Positions 41,912-49,712 of a DNA stretch of 64,000 nt are shown in pieces. The notes under the pieces are model-generated. The model made no database searches and was not told the DNA's origin. It was given only the letters and a program-made list of their open reading frames with translations. Where the stretch lies: assembly GCF_004138335.1 (NCBI RefSeq), contig NZ_RYFW01000003.1, positions 558,001 through 622,000 of the forward strand. The letters are read 5' to 3'. The position numbers and the translations under genes are program-made. How positions within the stretch are numbered: position 1 is the stretch's first letter; every line of letters begins with the position of its first letter. Source of the DNA: Peristeroidobacter agariperforans. GTDB lineage: Bacteria; Pseudomonadota; Gammaproteobacteria; Steroidobacterales; Steroidobacteraceae.

Positions 41912-42022
41912 GGTTGGATTGTACTCAGCGCCCTCGAGATAGGGCTACCACCGTGAAGCCCGTCACGCTGGTGCAGTTCGATGCAGGTAGACTTGCGCAA
42001 GTCAGCGGAGGGCGCCTCATTC

Positions 42023-43732
42023 ATGATTCTCGGCATCGACCTGGGGACGACAAACAGCGCGGCGGGAGTATGGCGTAACGGGCGTGCCGAGCTCATTCCA
42101 AACAGTCTCGGACACCTGCTGACGCCCTCGGCGGTCAGCATCGATGACGACGGCAAGATTCTGGTCGGTCTGGCGGCCCGCGACCGTCAAGTGACACACC
42201 CGGAACGAACCGCCACAGCTTTCAAGCGCTACATGGGCACGAGTCGGTCCCTTTCTCTGGGGCAGACACGCTACTACCCGGAGGAGTTGTCTGCGTTCGT
42301 GCTGCGTTCGTTGAAGGCAGACGCCGAGCACTACCTGGGCGAAACGATCACTGACGCAGTGATCACTGTCCCAGCTTACTTCAATGACAAGCAGCGCAAG
42401 GCGACCAAGCGTGCGGGCGAACTCGCGGGGCTGCGCGTGGAGCGGCTGTTGAATGAGCCGACGGCAGCCGCGCTGGCTTACGGAATTCACGAAACCGGGC
42501 GCGAGACGCGCTTTCTGGTGTTCGATCTCGGCGGCGGCACTTTCGACGTTTCGGTGCTGGACATTTTCGACGGCGTGATCGAAGTGCGCGCGAGCACAGG
42601 TGACAATCGCCTCGGCGGTGAAGACTTCAACGAGGTGCTGATCCGCATGATGCTCGAGAGCTGCCGTCAGCAGTGGCATCTACCCGACACGCCTCGCAGC
42701 GAGCTGCTCTATCAGCGCGTACGCGCCGAGGCTGAGCGTGCACGCCGACTGCTTTCGAGCGAAGAGCAAACCACGATGTCGATCTCGTGGAACGACAAGC
42801 ATGCCGAGCACCTGGTGAGCACGGAACAGTTCGAGCGTGCTGCCGAGACTTTACTGCAACGGTTGCGTGTTCCCGTGGTTCGCGCGCTGAAGGACGGCGG
42901 CATCGATGCCAGTCAGCTCGATTCAATCGTGTTGGTGGGCGGAGCGACGCGCATGCCCATCGTGCGCCGAGCGGTGACCAGGATGTTTGGCCGCTTCCCT
43001 GACTCGCGACTCAATCCCGACGAAGCGGTCGCGTTGGGAGCGGCGGTGCAGGCGGGCCTGAAGCAGCGCGATGCCGCTCTGAATGAAATTGTGCTTACGG
43101 ACGTTTGTCCGTACACGCTCGGCATCGAGATTTCCGAGGTCGTTGCGGGCGTCGGGCTGCGCGGCGGCCTGTTCGCGCCGCTCATCGAACGCAATACCAT
43201 CGTGCCGGCGAGCCGCTCGAAACAATTCTCCACGCTGACCGACGGGCAGACCTTTGTGCACGTCAACGTCTACCAAGGCGAAGCGCGGCAGGTCAGCGAT
43301 AACGTCAAGCTCGGCGAGTTGAAGGTGCCGGTGCCGCCGCGTCGCGCCGGAGAAGTGAACATCGATTGTCGCTTCAGCTATGACGTGAGCGGCTTGTTGG
43401 AGATCGACGTACACGTGCCGCTCACCGACGAGCGCCATCAGCTGGTCATCCTGGACGATGAGGACGGTACGCAACGCGAGGAAGTGCAGCAGCGCCGAGA
43501 ACGGCTGGCTGCGCTGAAGATCCATCCACGCGATCAGGATGCAAACAGGGTGGCTCTGTCGCGGGCCGCCCGCTGCTTCGAGGAATCGCTCGGCGAGCGT
43601 CGCGAGTTGGTCGGACGCTGGATGTCACAATTCGAGGCGGTGCTTGAACGGCAGGATCCGCGCGAAATCGAAATGGCGCGGAATGCGTTCATGAAGGCGC
43701 TCGACGGTGTCGATGGCGAGGTGTTCTTGTGA
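42023..43732 (+). CDS. hscC: HscC-type Hsp70 chaperone
   Basis: A 569-residue short Hsp70. The ATPase domain has [64 protein letters not shown] and [15 protein letters not shown]. The substrate-binding domain is shortened, without the long DnaK lid tail. These features and the J-like partner immediately downstream match HscC (Hsp62), which in E. coli works with DjlB/DjlC. GGAGG lies 12 bases before ATG 42023; an upstream ATG at 41981 is less likely. Clients are unknown. Confidence 0.85.
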
Positions 43733-45432
43733 GCACGCCTGATGCTCCATGGAGCATCCTTGGTATTGCGCCCACTGCAGATGGCGCTGCAATCCGGCGC
43801 GCCTACGCGGCGAAGCTGAAACTCACTCGCCCCGAAGACGATCGAGCGGGATTCGAGCATTTGCGCGCCGCCTATGAGCTCGCGCTGCAATGGGCTCGCC
43901 AGCAAGTTGCTGCGGTCCGCGCTCCGGCACCGGTGTCCGCGACAACTCCGACGCACGGTACGGTGAATGAAACAAAAGCTTCGGCAGCCGACCCAACGAA
44001 CGTCGTCGATGTCGAGCGTGAAAACGTTCGACGGGCGTTCGGCGAGCTGCACGCGCAGCTGAAATCCGAGCGGGGCGACTCGCCCGAGGCAAGTCGCGCG
44101 CTGGCAAAAATCCTGGAATCGCCGGCACTGGAAAACGTGTCGGCCGAACAGTGGGTCGAGCGCCAGCTCGCCGGTTTGCTCGCGTCTTTCATTCCTGCGT
44201 CCGACTCGCTGCTGGAAAGCGCCGCCGCCAGGTTTAGCTGGGCTCGTCCGGAAGCGGAGCTGGATCGGACGCCGCCGATCGAAGTCATCCTGAGTCGCCT
44301 CAACGATCTCCATTTCCTCGACACGTTGCGCTCCGGAGAGAGCCCTTACTCGGCCGCGTTTCGCGGCCTGCAGCGGCGCAAGATCCCGCTCTACAGCTGG
44401 ATGATGGCGCATATCAGCAAAGCCGGCGTGCCGGGCGAATATGAGCTCCTGCAGCTGATCCGCCTGCACCATCGGTCGTTGCTGCCGTTGTTGGAGCCCA
44501 CCGCGGTTGCATGGTGGGACCGGCTTGCCGGCCGGCCGCAGGTTTCGTTTCCGATCATCCTGCTCGGCCTGGCCTTCGCCGCGCTCAGTGTTATCCCGGG
44601 CGTTGCCATCGGCGAGCCGAATGCGGTGCTGGTCAGTGTGGGGAACATCGCGGCCGTGTTCACAGGGCTGGCGCTTTGGAAGCTATATCTGCTTGATTGG
44701 CCCCGCCATCTGCTGCGTACAAAGCTGCCCGTGCCGCCGGTGTTGGTGCTGCTCGGCTGGTTTCCCGCCAGCATCGCCGTCGTACTGCTGGCATTGATTC
44801 CCGCGTGGAGCTTCGTTTCATGGATCCTCGCCGTGCTTGCGGCTTGCGCCACTCAGTGGGCGTGGATCGTCGGATGGAACGGCGCCCCCGGCTCGCTGCA
44901 GAACGTGCTGACCATGCCGGTTTTCCGCGTCCTGATTTATAACTTTGTCGCTGGAATGTGGTGGTTGTCCGCCGCGGGAAAAATGCCGCCAGTGCCGCAA
45001 CTTCATGCGCCGGTGCTGTGCGCATTGGCCGGCAGTGCCTTGGGCTTGCCGATGGCGATCGCGGTCTGGGAGCAGCGTCTGACTTCCCCTCAGCGCTGGA
45101 TCTGGCTGTTTGCCACCAGCATCGTTGCCATCGTCGCCGTCGCCGTGCTGTGGTTTCTGGCCGATCGCGAAGCCTGGAGGCCAGTCGCTGCCGCCCTGGT
45201 CATCGTTGCTCTGCTCATGCACCGTCACATCGCGGCGATGCTCGGCAAGCGCCAGCAGGAACTCAGGTTTGGCTGGATGGTGACTTTCTTCATCGGCCTG
45301 ATCGTCGTAACGGTGCAATCGGAGCAGATGACGCCGCAGTTCGATGTGGTGCTCACCGGCTTCGGCTCGCTGTTGGCGAGTACGGTGCTGCTGTGTGCGC
45401 TCATGGCCATGTGGAACGAGCGGCAGGGATGA
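43729..45432 (+). CDS. membrane J-domain-like partner of HscC (DjlB/DjlC-like)
   Basis: A 567-residue protein beginning with a J-like domain, PWSILGIAPTADGAAIRRAY, then AAKLKLTRPEDD and FEHLRAAYELAL. The canonical HPD loop reads RPE. Residues about 60-265 are soluble and helical; from about 275 on there are about ten transmembrane helices. It starts at GTG overlapping the Hsp70 stop (GTGA), so the two proteins are coupled. It probably recruits the Hsp70 to the inner membrane. Similarity to E. coli DjlB/DjlC is by layout and operon context. Confidence 0.8.
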   Translation: MSTPDAPWSILGIAPTADGAAIRRAYAAKLKLTRPEDDRAGFEHLRAAYELALQWARQQVAAVRAPAPVSATTPTHGTVNETKASAADPTNVVDVERENVRRAFGELHAQLKSERGDSPEASRALAKILESPALENVSAEQWVERQLAGLLASFIPASDSLLESAAARFSWARPEAELDRTPPIEVILSRLNDLHFLDTLRSGESPYSAAFRGLQRRKIPLYSWMMAHISKAGVPGEYELLQLIRLHHRSLLPLLEPTAVAWWDRLAGRPQVSFPIILLGLAFAALSVIPGVAIGEPNAVLVSVGNIAAVFTGLALWKLYLLDWPRHLLRTKLPVPPVLVLLGWFPASIAVVLLALIPAWSFVSWILAVLAACATQWAWIVGWNGAPGSLQNVLTMPVFRVLIYNFVAGMWWLSAAGKMPPVPQLHAPVLCALAGSALGLPMAIAVWEQRLTSPQRWIWLFATSIVAIVAVAVLWFLADREAWRPVAAALVIVALLMHRHIAAMLGKRQQELRFGWMVTFFIGLIVVTVQSEQMTPQFDVVLTGFGSLLASTVLLCALMAMWNERQG

Positions 45433-45455: not shown

Positions 45456-46403
45456 TCACAGCTTCAGCTCGTCCATGCGGCGGCGTTCGTAGACTTCATC
45501 TTCCGCCGGATAGCGCAGGTCGGCGAACCGGCCTGACTGCTTGGCCATCGCCCAAAGAACGCTTTCGCCGGCTGGCAGAATATCCGGCTCGGCGGCAAAC
45601 AGCGGGTCCTGAAACGCTGTTTCGGCATCGATGATGCGCCAGCCACGCTGCACATACATTTGCAGCAGATCTGGCAGAAACAATGCCGCAGCCAGGTTGT
45701 GATGGATCAGCAGCGTGTGCTTCACCGGTCGCTGCAGCACTTCCCGGGCGAGGCGGTCGTAGAACTGCGTGCGATCCCACAAGTGCTCCAGATAGAACGC
45801 GCGATAGCCGTCCAACGCCGCATGCGGGTCCTCGGCCAGTCGCTTGCGCAGTCGAGCATCGATCGCCCAGTCCGAGGCATCGACTGTCACGTAGCCCATG
45901 CGATAGCCATTGGCTTTGAGGAATGCGCGCATCCGGTCGCGTTGCTCGGCAGTGGCTCCTTCCTTCAGATACGGAAATCTGAACCACTTGCGGAATGTTG
46001 CATACGACGCGATCACTGCTTCGCCTCGCAGCACGTCGGCGGAAAATTTATCGAAGCCGGTGTCTGGGTAGTGCCAGTGCGAGTACGTGTGATTGGCGAG
46101 TATGTGACCGGCATCGCTCCACGGCGCCAGGCGCCGCCTGCCGTCCGGATTGTCGACCCGCCTGCCGCACACGAATGCGGCTGCCTGCACCCGCATTGCC
46201 CGCAACGCGTCGAGTATCTGTGTGTTCCTGGCATCGGGATCGAATAGCGGTGTCGACGCATTCAGGTCGAAATCGTCAATGGTGATCGCGATCTCCGGTT
46301 GAGATGCCGGAGGTAAGGCGGCCGAGCTGCGGCAGCCCGCCAGCGCGCTCATCAACATCCCAATGCAGGTGCGGCGGCTGAAGCCGCCAGAGGGTGCATC
46401 CAT
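45456..46403 (-). CDS. polysaccharide deacetylase lipoprotein
   Basis: A 315-residue protein with a lipoprotein signal (SALAGC, Cys24). The NodB-homology domain has ITIDDFDLN (metal Asp and base), ANHTYSHWHY (HxxxH metal ligands) and WFRFPYLKEG. A late motif LLIHHNLAAAL fits the final catalytic His. It removes N-acetyl groups from chitin- or peptidoglycan-like glycans in the cell envelope. GAGG lies 9 bases before the ATG. It is divergent from blaI and M56-SLT across 123 bases that hold two BlaI-type dyads, so shared control is likely. Confidence 0.85.
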   Translation of the reverse strand: MDAPSGGFSRRTCIGMLMSALAGCRSSAALPPASQPEIAITIDDFDLNASTPLFDPDARNTQILDALRAMRVQAAAFVCGRRVDNPDGRRRLAPWSDAGHILANHTYSHWHYPDTGFDKFSADVLRGEAVIASYATFRKWFRFPYLKEGATAEQRDRMRAFLKANGYRMGYVTVDASDWAIDARLRKRLAEDPHAALDGYRAFYLEHLWDRTQFYDRLAREVLQRPVKHTLLIHHNLAAALFLPDLLQMYVQRGWRIIDAETAFQDPLFAAEPDILPAGESVLWAMAKQSGRFADLRYPAEDEVYERRRMDELKL

Positions 46404-46458
46404 GTGTTCGCCTCAGGTATCCGTGGACTGCGCCAAATTCGGCACGCGGCGGATCATG

Positions 46459-46500
46459 ACTAAACTCTTAGTTGCCAGCAACTAATTCCTTAGTTACGAT
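46459..46500. promoter_or_regulatory. BlaI-type twin operators and promoter in the deacetylase/blaI intergenic region
   Basis: Dyad 1 is ACTAA-ACTC-TTAGT (46459-46472); dyad 2 is AACTAA-TTCC-TTAGTT (46480-46495). Both have a 4-base spacer and the ACTA...TAGT core known for BlaI/MecI operators. A promoter for the plus strand fits between and across them: TTGCCA (46472-46477), 17 bases, TACGAT (46495-46500). Dyad 2 fills the spacer and dyad 1 abuts the -35 box, so BlaI binding would shut off its own operon. Confidence 0.7.
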
Positions 46501-46526
46501 GTGTCATCACGTCGCAATCGAAGCTC

Positions 46527-46934
46527 ATGGTCAGAAAATCCCGCGTCGCGCGTATCGCACAGCCCATCGAGAAGCCGCTGACGGCGACCGAACTGGAGAT
46601 GATGAACGTCATCTGGCGCATCGGTCCTTGCTCGGTGCTGCAAGTCGTCGAGCAGCTGCGGCCCGAGCGAGAGCTTGCTTACACCAGCGTCTCGACGATC
46701 GTGCGCATTCTGGAGCAGAAGGGCTATGTCATCAGTTCGAAGGAGGGGCGCGGACATCTCTATGACGCTGCTGTGTCCAAGGAGGACTATCAGCGCAGCA
46801 CGCTGAAGCGGATGGTGACGAGCGTATTCGACGATACTCCAGCGCTCCTCGTGCGCCGGCTGCTCGACACCGAGTCGCTCAGCTCGGACGATCTTGCTGA
46901 GATCCGCGCGCTGCTGCGGAAGAAAGGAAAGTGA
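46527..46934 (+). CDS. BlaI/MecI/CopY-family repressor
   Basis: A 135-residue winged-helix repressor: LTATELEMMNVIWRIGPCSV, VVEQLRPERELAYTSVSTIV, RILEQKGYVISSKEGRGHLY, then a dimerisation helix region (QRSTLKRMVTSVFDDTPALL). In this family the repressor is released when a membrane M56 protease is triggered by a cell-wall signal. The downstream M56 gene overlaps its stop (ATGATG at 46931), as in blaI-blaR1 operons. Two matching dyads lie 32-68 bases upstream. Confidence 0.92.
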   Translation: MVRKSRVARIAQPIEKPLTATELEMMNVIWRIGPCSVLQVVEQLRPERELAYTSVSTIVRILEQKGYVISSKEGRGHLYDAAVSKEDYQRSTLKRMVTSVFDDTPALLVRRLLDTESLSSDDLAEIRALLRKKGK

Positions 46935-48529
46935 TGATGACCGTGCACGCGGTGAACATGTACTTGGTTGCGAACCTCCTGTTGCTGCTTGCAGCGGTTG
47001 GAGTGGCATGTCTGCGTGGCGTTGGCGGGCGCTCGATCACTGCAATCGCGTATCGACGCCAGCTGCAGATTGCATACGTGCTGACGATTGCGGCCGTGAT
47101 GCTGCCAAGCCTGTCGCTGCTATCGCAGCGTGAGGATTGGCTGCCCAAAAACGCACAGATCTGGTCCGGCGCATCAATGGGTGATGCTACCCACAGCTCC
47201 CGAGATACGCATCGAATTGGCTTTTCAGTCGCGTCGTCGGAAGTCTCGGCCCCTCTGTACGCAGTTCGCGCCGTCACGACAGGTTTGTTCGTAGCAGGGG
47301 CGGCCGCCTTTCTCATAGTGATCTTCGCCGAAGCGATGCGGATCCGGCGCATCATCGTCGATGCGCAGACAATCGCGACGCGTCGGCGCGTGCGGGTGCT
47401 GTCCTCGCAGGCAGTCCGCGTACCGTTCTCGCTGTGGATCCCCGGAGTGCACTTCATCGTGCTGCCCGCGGACTTGATTGTATCGCCCGCCGACATTCGC
47501 ATGGCGATTCGGCACGAAGCCCAACATCACCGACAGCTCGATACACGGGTGATCTACGCATACCAGCTGCTGCGCCTGTTGTTCTTCTGGAATCCGGCCG
47601 TGCATTGGCTGAATAGGAGCATTGCGGAGCTCCAGGAGTTCTCATGCGACGAGGCCTTGATCGGAACCCGGAAGGTCTCTCCACAGGCTTATTGCCGCTG
47701 CCTGCTGCAAGTCGCCGAGTCGGCGGTCTCCCAGCGCGTTACCTCGATCTGCGTCAGCATGCTGGGTTCCGCGGCGGGCAGCGTTCTGAGGCGAAGAGTC
47801 GAAGCGCTCCTGACGCGAGGAGTGGCCAGCAATCGACGCTGGCCCGCCGCGGCGCTTGGTGCTGTAGTGCTGGCAACGATGGCGGGTACCGCCATGGCAT
47901 TCTCCTCGACGATTCAAGATCGGAGGATTTCGCCCGAGCAGGCGCAGCGCATGTTGGCAGTCGCTCGGCGGGGCAGTGACTTTCCGTTCGTCGCGAACGA
48001 GCCGGTCGTGGCGCAGCTCAATCGTTTGCTCGGCACTCCCGACGGCCGGGCCTTCGTACGCGCGAGCTTGCGGCGCATGCAAGAACACGAGGCGCTGATT
48101 ACTGCAGCGATCGCTCATTACGGATTACCGGAGGAGCTGATGGCGGTGCCTGCGATCGAATCGGGTTATCGCAATCTCCCGCCCAGCGACGATGCGCGAC
48201 GAGGCGCCGGGCTGTGGATGTTCATCGAGCCGACCGCCCGCCGGTTCGGGTTGGTGATCGACGGGAATATCGATGAGCGGCTCAACGTCGCACTGGAGAC
48301 TGACGCGGCCATGCGCATGATCGGCGGCCTCTACGAGCACTTCGACGATTGGGGGCTCGCCTTGCTCGCATACAATACTGGTGAGCGCATGGTAGACGAG
48401 GCCATGCGCGCGACAGGCTCACGCAATCCGTGGCGCGCAGTCGAGCAGGGCTTCGAGAACGATCCTGACTATCTGGCGCGTGTGATGGCCATGGCGCTCA
48501 TCATGAAGAATCCCGCGTTGATCGAATGA
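46931..48529 (+). CDS. M56 (BlaR1-type) membrane metalloprotease fused to a lytic transglycosylase domain
   Basis: A 532-residue fusion. Transmembrane helices at about 10-28, 47-65, 112-134 and 207-222 frame the zinc protease motif IRHEAQHH (HExxH at 195-199) and EFSCDEAL (236-243), the layout of M56/BlaR1. A last helix (304-324) leads to a periplasmic domain (about 335-532) that is an SLT/MltD-like lytic transglycosylase: VPAIESGYRN (catalytic Glu410), GAGLWMFIEPTARRFGL, LALLAYNTGE. BlaR1 has a penicillin-binding sensor here instead. I infer that it senses peptidoglycan or muropeptides and cleaves BlaI. No beta-lactamase gene is nearby. Confidence 0.88.
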   Translation: MMMTVHAVNMYLVANLLLLLAAVGVACLRGVGGRSITAIAYRRQLQIAYVLTIAAVMLPSLSLLSQREDWLPKNAQIWSGASMGDATHSSRDTHRIGFSVASSEVSAPLYAVRAVTTGLFVAGAAAFLIVIFAEAMRIRRIIVDAQTIATRRRVRVLSSQAVRVPFSLWIPGVHFIVLPADLIVSPADIRMAIRHEAQHHRQLDTRVIYAYQLLRLLFFWNPAVHWLNRSIAELQEFSCDEALIGTRKVSPQAYCRCLLQVAESAVSQRVTSICVSMLGSAAGSVLRRRVEALLTRGVASNRRWPAAALGAVVLATMAGTAMAFSSTIQDRRISPEQAQRMLAVARRGSDFPFVANEPVVAQLNRLLGTPDGRAFVRASLRRMQEHEALITAAIAHYGLPEELMAVPAIESGYRNLPPSDDARRGAGLWMFIEPTARRFGLVIDGNIDERLNVALETDAAMRMIGGLYEHFDDWGLALLAYNTGERMVDEAMRATGSRNPWRAVEQGFENDPDYLARVMAMALIMKNPALIE

Positions 48530-48548
48530 GAGCGGCCCGCGTGCCTTG

Positions 48549-49712
48549 ATGCGAAACCCGGGAATCGACGCGCTGCGAGGTCTGGCGATCCTGCTCGTGA
48601 TCCTCGTGCACCTGCGCATCCGCATCCCGCTGAAGGACAGCTTCGTCGCCGACATCCTGCCCCACTGGTTGGTGAACGCCCTGACCGATCGTGGACATGA
48701 AGCGGTATACGTGTTCTTCGTGATCTCGGGCTTTCTGATCACATCGCATGCGATGATCAGATGGAGAGAGCTCCACCAGATGGACGCTCTGGCATTCTGG
48801 GCGCGGCGTGCTGCGCGCATCCTGCCTTGCTTGCTGGTCCTGATCGCCGTGCTGAGCGTTCTGCACTTACTGGATGTGCAGGGCTATACCATCTGGCGGG
48901 AAGGTCAATCTCTTTCGGGCGCGATCGTCGCGGCGCTCGGCTTTCACATCAACTGGTACGAAGGACAACACGGATATCTGCCCGGCAGCTGGGACATCCT
49001 CTGGTCGTTGGCGATCGAGGAGATCTTCTATCTCGGCTTCCCGATTGTTTGCCTCCTGATCCGGAGCCGCGCAGCCATGATGATCCTGCTCGCGCTGTTC
49101 GCGGCATCGCTGCCCATTCTGAAGGCCACCGTGGGTGGCAGCGAGATCTGGCAGCAAAAGGCTTACCTCCCGGGTATGTCGGCCATCTCCGCCGGTGTCG
49201 TGGCGGCGTTGATCGCTGCGAAGATCCAAGCAGTATCGATGGCGCAGCTACGTGTCCTCTATGCCGTCGGCACGGCAGGGCTGCTTGCGGTGATGGGGCT
49301 CACCGATCGCATTGCCGCCCTTCAATACGTTTTGCCGCTGCTGCTGACTGTAGCCACTGTGTGTCTCCTTCTCGGGTTTCACTGGCAGGCGAAGCTGGGA
49401 GCTCTCAGAAGTCGGCCGGGGGCAAAGTGGCTGGGCTCCATGGGGCGCTTGAGCTATGAGATGTACCTTTCCCACATGTTCGTCGTGCTGTCCGTCGCCA
49501 GCGTCGTGAAGGCCGCTCGATGGGATCCCTATTGGGGCTTTGTGTGGTATCTGCCGACGATCCTCATGGCGTGGGGGCTGGGCTCGCTGATCGAGAGGCA
49601 TTTGTCGACACCGTCAATGAAATGGGTGCTTCGGCAGGCGATCACGAATGAAAGGCTTGAACCGCCGCGTCTGCGTGGCCCCCATGATGGCAAGGTGAGC
49701 ATCGATGACTGA
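48549..49712 (+). CDS. acyltransferase 3 family membrane O-acyltransferase
   Basis: A 387-residue protein with about ten transmembrane helices. Family motifs are GIDALRGLAILLVILVH, HEAVYVFFVISGFLITSHAM, ARILPCLLVL and SWDILWSLAIEEIFY. It transfers acyl (often acetyl) groups to sugars at the outer face of the inner membrane. It follows the M56-SLT gene by 19 bases and is probably in the same operon. Because O-acetylation of muramic acid blocks lytic transglycosylases, peptidoglycan is a tempting target, but lipopolysaccharide or exopolysaccharide is equally allowed by sequence. Confidence 0.85.
   Translation: MRNPGIDALRGLAILLVILVHLRIRIPLKDSFVADILPHWLVNALTDRGHEAVYVFFVISGFLITSHAMIRWRELHQMDALAFWARRAARILPCLLVLIAVLSVLHLLDVQGYTIWREGQSLSGAIVAALGFHINWYEGQHGYLPGSWDILWSLAIEEIFYLGFPIVCLLIRSRAAMMILLALFAASLPILKATVGGSEIWQQKAYLPGMSAISAGVVAALIAAKIQAVSMAQLRVLYAVGTAGLLAVMGLTDRIAALQYVLPLLLTVATVCLLLGFHWQAKLGALRSRPGAKWLGSMGRLSYEMYLSHMFVVLSVASVVKAARWDPYWGFVWYLPTILMAWGLGSLIERHLSTPSMKWVLRQAITNERLEPPRLRGPHDGKVSIDD

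Follow-up and report, generated by a model that had tools for sequence, protein, structure and literature searches.

Within the window (the whole stretch of 64,000 nucleotides that was analysed), the ORF list and Pfam place four genes between 45456 and 49712, all of those that an earlier note on this DNA had claimed and each where it had put them. A polysaccharide deacetylase of the CE4 type (45456..46403; PF01522, E-value 1.6e-14, 54.3 bits against a cut-off of 23.1) is read from the reverse strand, and diverges from three genes on the forward strand: a blaI-type repressor (46527..46934; PF03965, Penicillinase_R, 3.6e-29, 101.9 bits against a cut-off of 22.6), a fusion of an M56 protease with an SLT-type lytic transglycosylase (46931..48529), which we treat as a putative receptor-enzyme, and an acyltransferase family 3 membrane protein (48546..49712; PF01757, 7.4e-25). 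The frames of blaI and the fusion overlap, and the acyltransferase, which begins after a gap of 16 nt, is probably the last gene of the blaI operon. An ATG at 46934 is possible as the start of the fusion instead of the GTG at 46931. The absence of a beta-lactamase gene, also claimed earlier, was borne out by a Pfam scan, which found none among the seven local proteins. A role in anti-phage defence was considered and rejected, PADLOC finding nothing for the fusion, the deacetylase or the acyltransferase and only weak CARF3 and RmrA matches for BlaI.

Two BlaI-type dyads had been described between the divergent genes, and both are present and perfect (ACTAA-N4-TTAGT): ACTAAACTCTTAGT at 46459..46472 and ACTAATTCCTTAGT at 46481..46494, predicted as operator sites from the dyad search and from comparison of genomes and loci. 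A promoter scan places a sigma-70-like promoter for blaI on the forward strand at 46472..46500 (TTGCCA, 17, TACGAT), and the conserved dyads, the predicted BlaI sites, cover its -35 and -10 elements. The scan reported no divergent deacetylase promoter; by eye, a possible but weak -10 (CATGAT, 46453..46458, reverse strand) can be read together with a weak -35 (TTGCTG, 46481-46476), and this candidate is conserved in S. agaridevorans when the intergenic region of the window is compared with that of locus L040. Allowing at most one mismatch, the window contains three dyad matches against 0.07 expected, a number reached in none of 100 shuffles, and the 7.65 Mb genome holds no perfect dyad besides this pair. 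Eight one-mismatch copies occur elsewhere in the genome, one of which precedes another blaI, while the nine ORFs beside the other seven carry no wall or beta-lactamase domain.

For comparison across genomes, we defined a strict tandem operator as two CTAA-N4-TTAG dyads, 22-23 bp apart and overlapping the promoter. It is found at 49 of the 63 fusion loci with upstream sequence, the other 14 including some with too little upstream sequence and others with degenerate dyads; blaI lies directly upstream of the fusion at all 63. The tandem operator occurs exactly once per genome in 30 of 32 genomes, a figure that is not a prevalence, because the genomes were hand-picked, nearly all from operator-bearing loci; the reversed-pattern control gave no match in any of the 32. 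Wherever a tandem site had a locus, blaI was there (51/51). Among the picked genomes only Sulfidibacter, which belongs to another phylum, has a second tandem operator. Of its single perfect dyads, two (L176) precede another blaI, while a third (L177) lacks an evident partner, as does the single perfect dyad in G480 (L175). Most BlaI proteins linked to a fusion (56 of 61) have Ser at residue 56, which lies in the presumed recognition helix, whereas 11 of 13 others have Ala there, a difference that goes with AACTAA- versus TACTAA-type dyads.

The fusion holds PF05569 (2.5e-18, residues 138-293) and the SLT domain PF01464 (7.1e-15, residues 395-501) in a single protein (Pfam), and is divided into a BlaR1-like transmembrane and zinc-protease module (residues 7-285) and an MltD-type lytic transglycosylase ectodomain (residues 346-532). 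A profile of 34 homologues matches both BlaR1 8exp (5.4e-18, profile positions 16-318) and MltD 8rhe (4.7e-34, 372-528). The AlphaFold model (pLDDT 85.5) was compared with solved structures by VIA-align: its transmembrane and protease part aligns with BlaR1 8exs over 243 residues (Z 18.8, rmsd 3.9), and its transglycosylase domain with P. aeruginosa MltD (8RHE/8RHF/8RHI; values for 8rhi) over 179 residues (Z 21.7, rmsd 2.1, 29% identity), with the Glu-Ser pair kept. MltD is a lipoprotein. Unlike MltD, the fusion has a transmembrane anchor and a fused protease, and it is without LysM repeats (none by Pfam, at E up to 1).

As in BlaR1 and MecR1, the protease half shows the M56 gluzincin pattern of HEXXH...E, followed four residues later by an Asp, together with an Arg pair: H195, E196 and H199 form the HEXXH, E236 is the third-ligand Glu and D240 the Asp. 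By alignment and spacing, its conserved residues correspond to the zinc ligands H201/H205/E242 and the D246-R294' pair of BlaR1, as given in PMC9834060. H195, E196, H199, E236, D240 and R289 are invariant in all 61 full-length homologues, as are E410, the presumed catalytic residue of the SLT domain, and S411 (the SLT Glu-Ser pair), across four phyla; since most of these homologues were fetched through protease-motif patterns, only the counts for E410, S411 and R289 are independent of that choice. The modelled ectodomain follows the last transmembrane helix, in keeping with the layout of BlaR1. Unlike BlaR1 and MecR1, the fusion has no C-terminal SXXK penicillin-binding sensor by Pfam or structure alignment, the SLT domain standing in its place, and NCBIfam blaR1_generic gives 41.9 bits against a cut-off of 400. 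Judged from sequence and model, the fusion is thus a BlaR1-type protease module that carries, in place of the beta-lactam sensor, a lytic transglycosylase of the MltD type with a predicted intact active site.

The locus resembles the staphylococcal BlaR1-BlaI and MecR1-MecI systems in its BlaI-family repressor and its divergent layout with dyads between the genes. It differs from the bla and mec divergons in that neither a beta-lactamase nor PBP2a was found at the fusion locus, and the probable targets are instead the receptor itself and glycan-modifying enzymes. Another M56/BlaI pair that falls outside the classical set of penicillin sensors is the BlaR1 homologue and BlaI of M. tuberculosis; according to PMC9834060 this homologue has no equivalent sensor domain, whereas the fusion has a domain in the sensor position, with its enzyme site intact. 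We found no description of an M56-transglycosylase fusion in the open-licence full texts of PubMed Central.

The deacetylase is a putative lipoprotein, with a lipobox LAGC after an RR motif read by eye. Its motifs TIDD, NHTYSH, RFPY, DASDW and LIHHN, also read by eye, are presumably CE4-like, and together with the PF01522 domain ally it with the CE4 deacetylases (PgdA/PdaA type; solved chitin and peptidoglycan deacetylases). To the solved enzymes it is nevertheless only distantly related (phmmer matches 2y8u and 5o6y, E about 2e-6), and it falls below the cut-offs of all eight listed NCBIfam models. A deacetylase stands at the tandem operator in four genomes, in three layouts and two phyla: divergent from blaI in the window and at L040; as the first gene of the operon behind the operator in another Steroidobacter (L061); and in trans in Sulfidibacter (L164), where the second tandem operator precedes a deacetylase 47% identical to that of the window. 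At E 1e-20, 25 of the 32 picked genomes have no deacetylase relative, and three of the seven that do have no operator before it. Likewise, 15 of 100 family genomes have a relative, and only two of these have blaI within about 1.5 kb on either side. In the deacetylase tree the operator-linked rows lie in three places, requiring three changes, all forced by starred branches; shuffled labels perform equally well in 92 of 500 trials, and the changes could instead be one gain and two losses. A universal deacetylase partner is ruled out by its absence from most picked genomes. The Sulfidibacter and L061 layouts and the three places in the tree support the link to the operator, yet it appears optional, being seen in only 4 of 32 genomes.

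A full-length fusion is present in 3 of 100 family genomes, and in a class survey of 369 genomes a full-length match at E 1e-30 was found only in G000. Single vertical inheritance within the Steroidobacteraceae is unlikely because of this scarcity and because the fusions of the window and L040 fall in different well-supported clades from those of L011 and L012. We also looked for a neighbour conserved across lineages and rejected it: 295 neighbour ORFs from 61 loci fell into 240 clusters, and nearly all of the larger clusters were confined to Myxococcota, in a clustering that used ORFs without family annotation and crude ORF picking in GC-rich genomes, by which, for example, the L040 deacetylase was missed. 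With a one-sequence model, the acyltransferase was found beside blaI and the fusion only in the window and in two gammaproteobacterial MAGs. Comparison of the loci indicates that the recurring core is operator, blaI and fusion, with the deacetylase and the acyltransferase as recruited accessories. The system proposed in the earlier note is thus partly supported: a sensor-protease resembling BlaR1 that carries a transglycosylase domain has held up, as has the placing of the deacetylase at the operator. The generality of the partners has not; on the refuting condition set in the note itself, fusions do occur without deacetylase or acyltransferase, although blaI adjoins the fusion at all 63 loci with upstream sequence.

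On balance, we favour, with some reserve, a BlaI/BlaR1-type switch that would read the glycan through its transglycosylase ectodomain, free BlaI, and induce its own operon along with wall-modifying accessories. At rest, by analogy with the BlaI family, BlaI would sit on the two dyads and repress the blaI-fusion-acyltransferase operon and, in the window, the divergent deacetylase, a probable member of the regulon. When the transglycosylase domain meets a particular glycan state, such as free ends, denuded or modified strands, or an occupying inhibitor, a signal would cross the membrane and the cytoplasmic zinc protease would cleave BlaI, as BlaR1 does. Induction would yield more receptor-enzyme, in Steroidobacter and Sulfidibacter also the deacetylase, and in the window the acyltransferase as well. 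The induced enzymes may alter the substrate of the transglycosylase, which would give feedback on the signal; both the monitoring of peptidoglycan by the ectodomain and the closing of such a loop are what we infer from these parts.

One could also suppose that the fusion is mainly an effector, with BlaI and the M56 domain controlling, by autoregulation or turnover, how much of a membrane transglycosylase that could be lethal is present, and the SLT domain sensing nothing. The operator is mostly found once, at the blaI-fusion locus, in the picked genomes (30/32, with blaI at 51/51 sites that had loci), which in most cases leaves the enzyme as the one target that can be seen, and E410 is invariant (61/61). 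We nonetheless consider this unlikely, as the fusion keeps the receptor layout of BlaR1, and three separate lineages have an accessory target at the operator, as a switch that responds to a signal would be expected to have. The same single operator fits a further possibility, which we hold tentatively and with more credence than the pure effector, that the receptor is its own main output: the transglycosylase would gauge its own substrate, occupancy or inhibition and set its own abundance through the protease and BlaI, wall-modifying genes having come under the same operator in separate lineages.

That the ectodomain reads transglycosylase inhibitors of the bulgecin kind, much as BlaR1 reads PBP-hitting drugs through its penicillin-binding domain, is suggested by this analogy and by the crystallisation of MltD, the closest solved relative, with bulgecin A; we judge it improbable, since the operator genes found modify glycan and no inhibitor-resistance gene was seen there among neighbours annotated for few loci. 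Slightly less credible still is induction from inside, in which BlaI itself would answer recycled muropeptides and the fusion would be dispensable: PMC3305447 reports that the bla system of B. licheniformis is triggered by a fragment of peptidoglycan, but the protease active site is kept in 61/61 fusions, partly through the choice of search patterns. We give an equally slim chance to the deacetylase being an unrelated neighbour outside BlaI control. It is missing from most picked fusion genomes, and most family members with a relative have no blaI beside it; against this, the same operator precedes the same type of gene in three layouts and two phyla, and in the one genome of the 32 that has a second tandem site, that site precedes a deacetylase.

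The fusion bears on the question of how Gram-negative cells perceive the condition of the glycan as such, as opposed to the drugs acting on it. It offers a receptor with a predicted intact glycan-cleaving ectodomain, and because its proteolytic switch is well understood and its operator compact and highly conserved, reporter, cleavage and ligand tests should be simple; tractable hosts such as Myxococcus carry the system. The findings suggest that BlaR1-type receptors are modular platforms, with penicillin detection as just one of their uses. That deacetylases of one kind recur at this operator in three lineages is an evolutionary hint at physiology: with a wall-cutting ectodomain, and an operator before a wall-modifying gene in several bacteria, the BlaI-fusion switch may let the cell read and adjust its own wall. 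If the receptor is indeed its own main output, a single protein, at once enzyme and receptor, would govern wall turnover in at least four phyla, including Myxococcota and Bdellovibrionota, among which are predators.

The four genes described in the earlier note, a deacetylase (45456-46403, minus strand) and, on the plus strand, blaI (46527-46934), the M56-transglycosylase fusion (46931-48529) and a family 3 acyltransferase that probably closes the operon (48546-49712), lie in the window where that note had placed them, as do the two ACTAA-N4-TTAGT dyads (46459-46472 and 46481-46494) between deacetylase and blaI. An Hsp70 gene and, after it, the gene of a membrane protein whose N-terminus weakly resembles DnaJ (E 0.056) occupy 41981-45432, just past the deacetylase.

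The fusion carries PF05569 and a lytic transglycosylase (SLT) domain within a single ORF of 532 residues, and a profile built from 34 of its homologues matches S. aureus BlaR1 at positions 16-318 and P. aeruginosa MltD at 372-528. Its AlphaFold model (pLDDT 85.5) superimposes on BlaR1 (8exs) over residues 7-285 (Z 18.8, rmsd 3.9, 243 residues, 12% identity) and on MltD (8rhi) over 346-532 (Z 21.7, rmsd 2.1, 179 residues, 29% identity). The protein has long hydrophobic helices at four places (residues 2-34, 41-65, 109-144 and 304-324, approximately), with a short fifth hydrophobic stretch, residues 166-184, that is largely strand in the model, and the SLT domain is placed behind the last transmembrane helix, the position held in BlaR1 by the extracellular sensor. 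H195, E196, H199, E236, D240 and R289, together with E410 and S411 of the SLT domain, are invariant in 61 of 61 full-length homologues (eight others, ended by contig ends, were left out), although for the protease residues these counts arise partly by construction, since the named loci were retrieved through two protease-motif patterns; E410, S411 and R289 are free of this effect. By HMM alignment and spacing, these residues coincide with the zinc site of BlaR1, with its Asp246 and Arg294, and with the Glu-Ser pair of MltD; the BlaR1 residues have the roles described in PMC9834060. Because the conserved residues fall on both active sites, both halves of the fusion look like active enzymes.

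Among the best 80 of 97 relatives in named genomes, 68 have the M56-SLT architecture and 12 have an M56 lacking SLT, although L106, among these 12, ends before the SLT domain would start. Once the window and two loci from the family were added and duplicates removed, there were 69 distinct M56-SLT loci, of which six begin at the fusion or at most 57 nt from it, leaving no space for blaI. The earlier note had proposed a search for co-occurrence of blaI, M56-SLT and deacetylase: its first element held throughout, with blaI directly upstream of the fusion in all 63 remaining loci, and the deacetylase did not generally follow, being at the operator in 4 of 32 picked genomes. Record titles place the hosts in Bdellovibrionota, Myxococcota, Acidobacteriota and Pseudomonadota. 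The closest named relative among the best 80, from Steroidobacter agaridevorans (64% over the best segment), has deacetylase, dyads, blaI and fusion arranged as in the window, with a PF00756 esterase in place of the acyltransferase. The fusion from a record titled Comamonas sp. KCTC 72670 (L073) nests within Myxococcus, so that either the record is mislabelled or the gene was transferred. Two loci have tRNA genes immediately ahead of the operator region of blaI (L056:5452-5528 and L066:5239-5427), which could be insertion sites.

A strict tandem operator (CTAA-N4-TTAG, 10-11 nt, CTAA-N4-TTAG) is present in 49 of the 63 loci; the other 14 have either too little sequence or degenerate dyads. In 30 of the 49, the best sigma-70-like -35 element starts at one shared position inside dyad 1, in its right arm, and the -10 follows just past dyad 2 (TTGCCA-17-TACGAT in the window; 12/12 matches at locus L077), while seven gave no promoter candidate under the rule applied. 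Promoter scores average 6.3 over the 49 loci versus 5.1 in mononucleotide shuffles, and reach at least 9 in 14 of 49 loci versus 3% of shuffles. The natural reading of this arrangement is that BlaI would block the promoter by steric occlusion. Fusion-linked dyads are mostly AACTAA...TTAGTT, the second one in Myxococcus often ending TTAGTA. Of 13 M56 loci with blaI and no SLT (L106 ends early), a core dyad lies close to the promoter in eight, reading TACTAA...TTAGTA in seven and mixed in one, and is absent from five. At BlaI residue 56, presumably part of the recognition helix, 56 of 61 fusion-linked repressors carry Ser and 11 of the 13 others carry Ala.

Throughout the 7.65 Mb genome to which the window belongs, the perfect dyad occurs only twice, both times within 46459-46494. 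Eight one-mismatch copies lie elsewhere, giving ten matches in total versus 53 per strand for the reversed-pattern control, so that the observed number is below the control. One of the eight precedes another blaI, and the nine ORFs flanking the other seven contain no beta-lactamase or wall domain. The genome also holds four other BlaI genes (C11:173512, C9:2149934, C12:153081 and C14:154779) and three other M56 genes; the three resulting pairs have C-termini that differ from that of the fusion, and the C14 gene has no adjoining M56 match. Across 32 fusion-bearing genomes, our own pick and nearly all drawn from operator loci, the tandem operator occurs exactly once in 30, twice in Sulfidibacter corallicola (G478) and not at all in G482, with no reversed-pattern match in any of the 32. 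It occurs once each in 53 of 195 genomes of the phylum of a Myxococcus xanthus record, where the reversed pattern matched in one genome, and blaI was present at all 51 operator sites from the two scans that were given loci. In a search of 13 genomes for single perfect dyads, the tandem pair stood alone in ten, with 1, 3 and 7 in G469, G480 and G478, respectively (reversed-pattern control, 0-12 per genome). In most of these genomes, then, the regulon that can be seen consists of the blaI-fusion locus alone; more degenerate targets would escape such a search. A further BlaI-M56 pair in Sulfidibacter has two dyads of its own (L176:1715-2170).

Beyond the core module, relatives of the window deacetylase (E 1e-20) are found in 7 of the 32 picked genomes, at the operator in four and away from it in three (G479, G473 and, with an interrupted frame, G483). 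In a Steroidobacter MAG (L061), whose fusion is 36% identical, the order is deacetylase-blaI-fusion and the dyads lie 12-48 bp ahead of the deacetylase as first gene, with none between deacetylase and blaI. In Sulfidibacter, a member of a different phylum, the second tandem site (L164, 5642-5678) precedes by about 170 bp a deacetylase that shares 47% identity with that of the window, some 26 kb from its blaI-fusion. Among 100 family genomes, 15 have a deacetylase relative, with blaI and dyads adjoining only in that of the window and in G060. The genome of L070, titled Lysobacteraceae, contains a relative with an interrupted frame (L171), at which no perfect dyad was found. On a tree built from 19 deacetylases, operator linkage, present in four of them, requires three changes, all forced by starred branches, and the fusions of these four fall into three separate clades. 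This is most simply read as repeated recruitment of one kind of deacetylase to the same operator, although the three changes can also be fitted by one gain and two losses, and 92 of 500 label shuffles do as well as the observed three. All that the tree establishes is that the operator-linked genes do not form a single clade.

Other neighbours vary. In two gammaproteobacterial MAGs (L058 and L043), an acyltransferase is divergent from blaI with the dyads in between, 46% identical to that of the window in L058 and a short frame in L043; downstream of the fusion are a second SLT protein in L061 and an M23 peptidase at locus L012. Thus wall-type genes recur close to the fusion in Steroidobacteraceae and these two MAGs, where neighbours are annotated. 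In the genome of L050, titled Oligoflexia, an acyltransferase-3 gene overlaps a related deacetylase (L174:350-2328) at a locus with no blaI and no operator, so these two types also pair without the switch.

Our searches of open-licence full texts gave no description of the M56-transglycosylase architecture. We place the system with the BlaI/BlaR1 kind without calling it BlaR1, since the fusion lacks the penicillin-sensor domain of BlaR1 and no gene for beta-lactam resistance was seen under its dyads. O-acetylation and N-deacetylation alter cleavage by lytic transglycosylase-type enzymes. A Bdellovibrio lysozyme is reported to act on deacetylated peptidoglycan (PMC7511926). The parts, their operator, their linkage and the conserved active-site residues can be read directly from the sequence; by analogy with the BlaI/BlaR1 family, BlaI would act as repressor and the receptor would inactivate it by proteolysis, and we propose that the transglycosylase domain may serve as the sensor, on which deacetylation or acylation would feed back.
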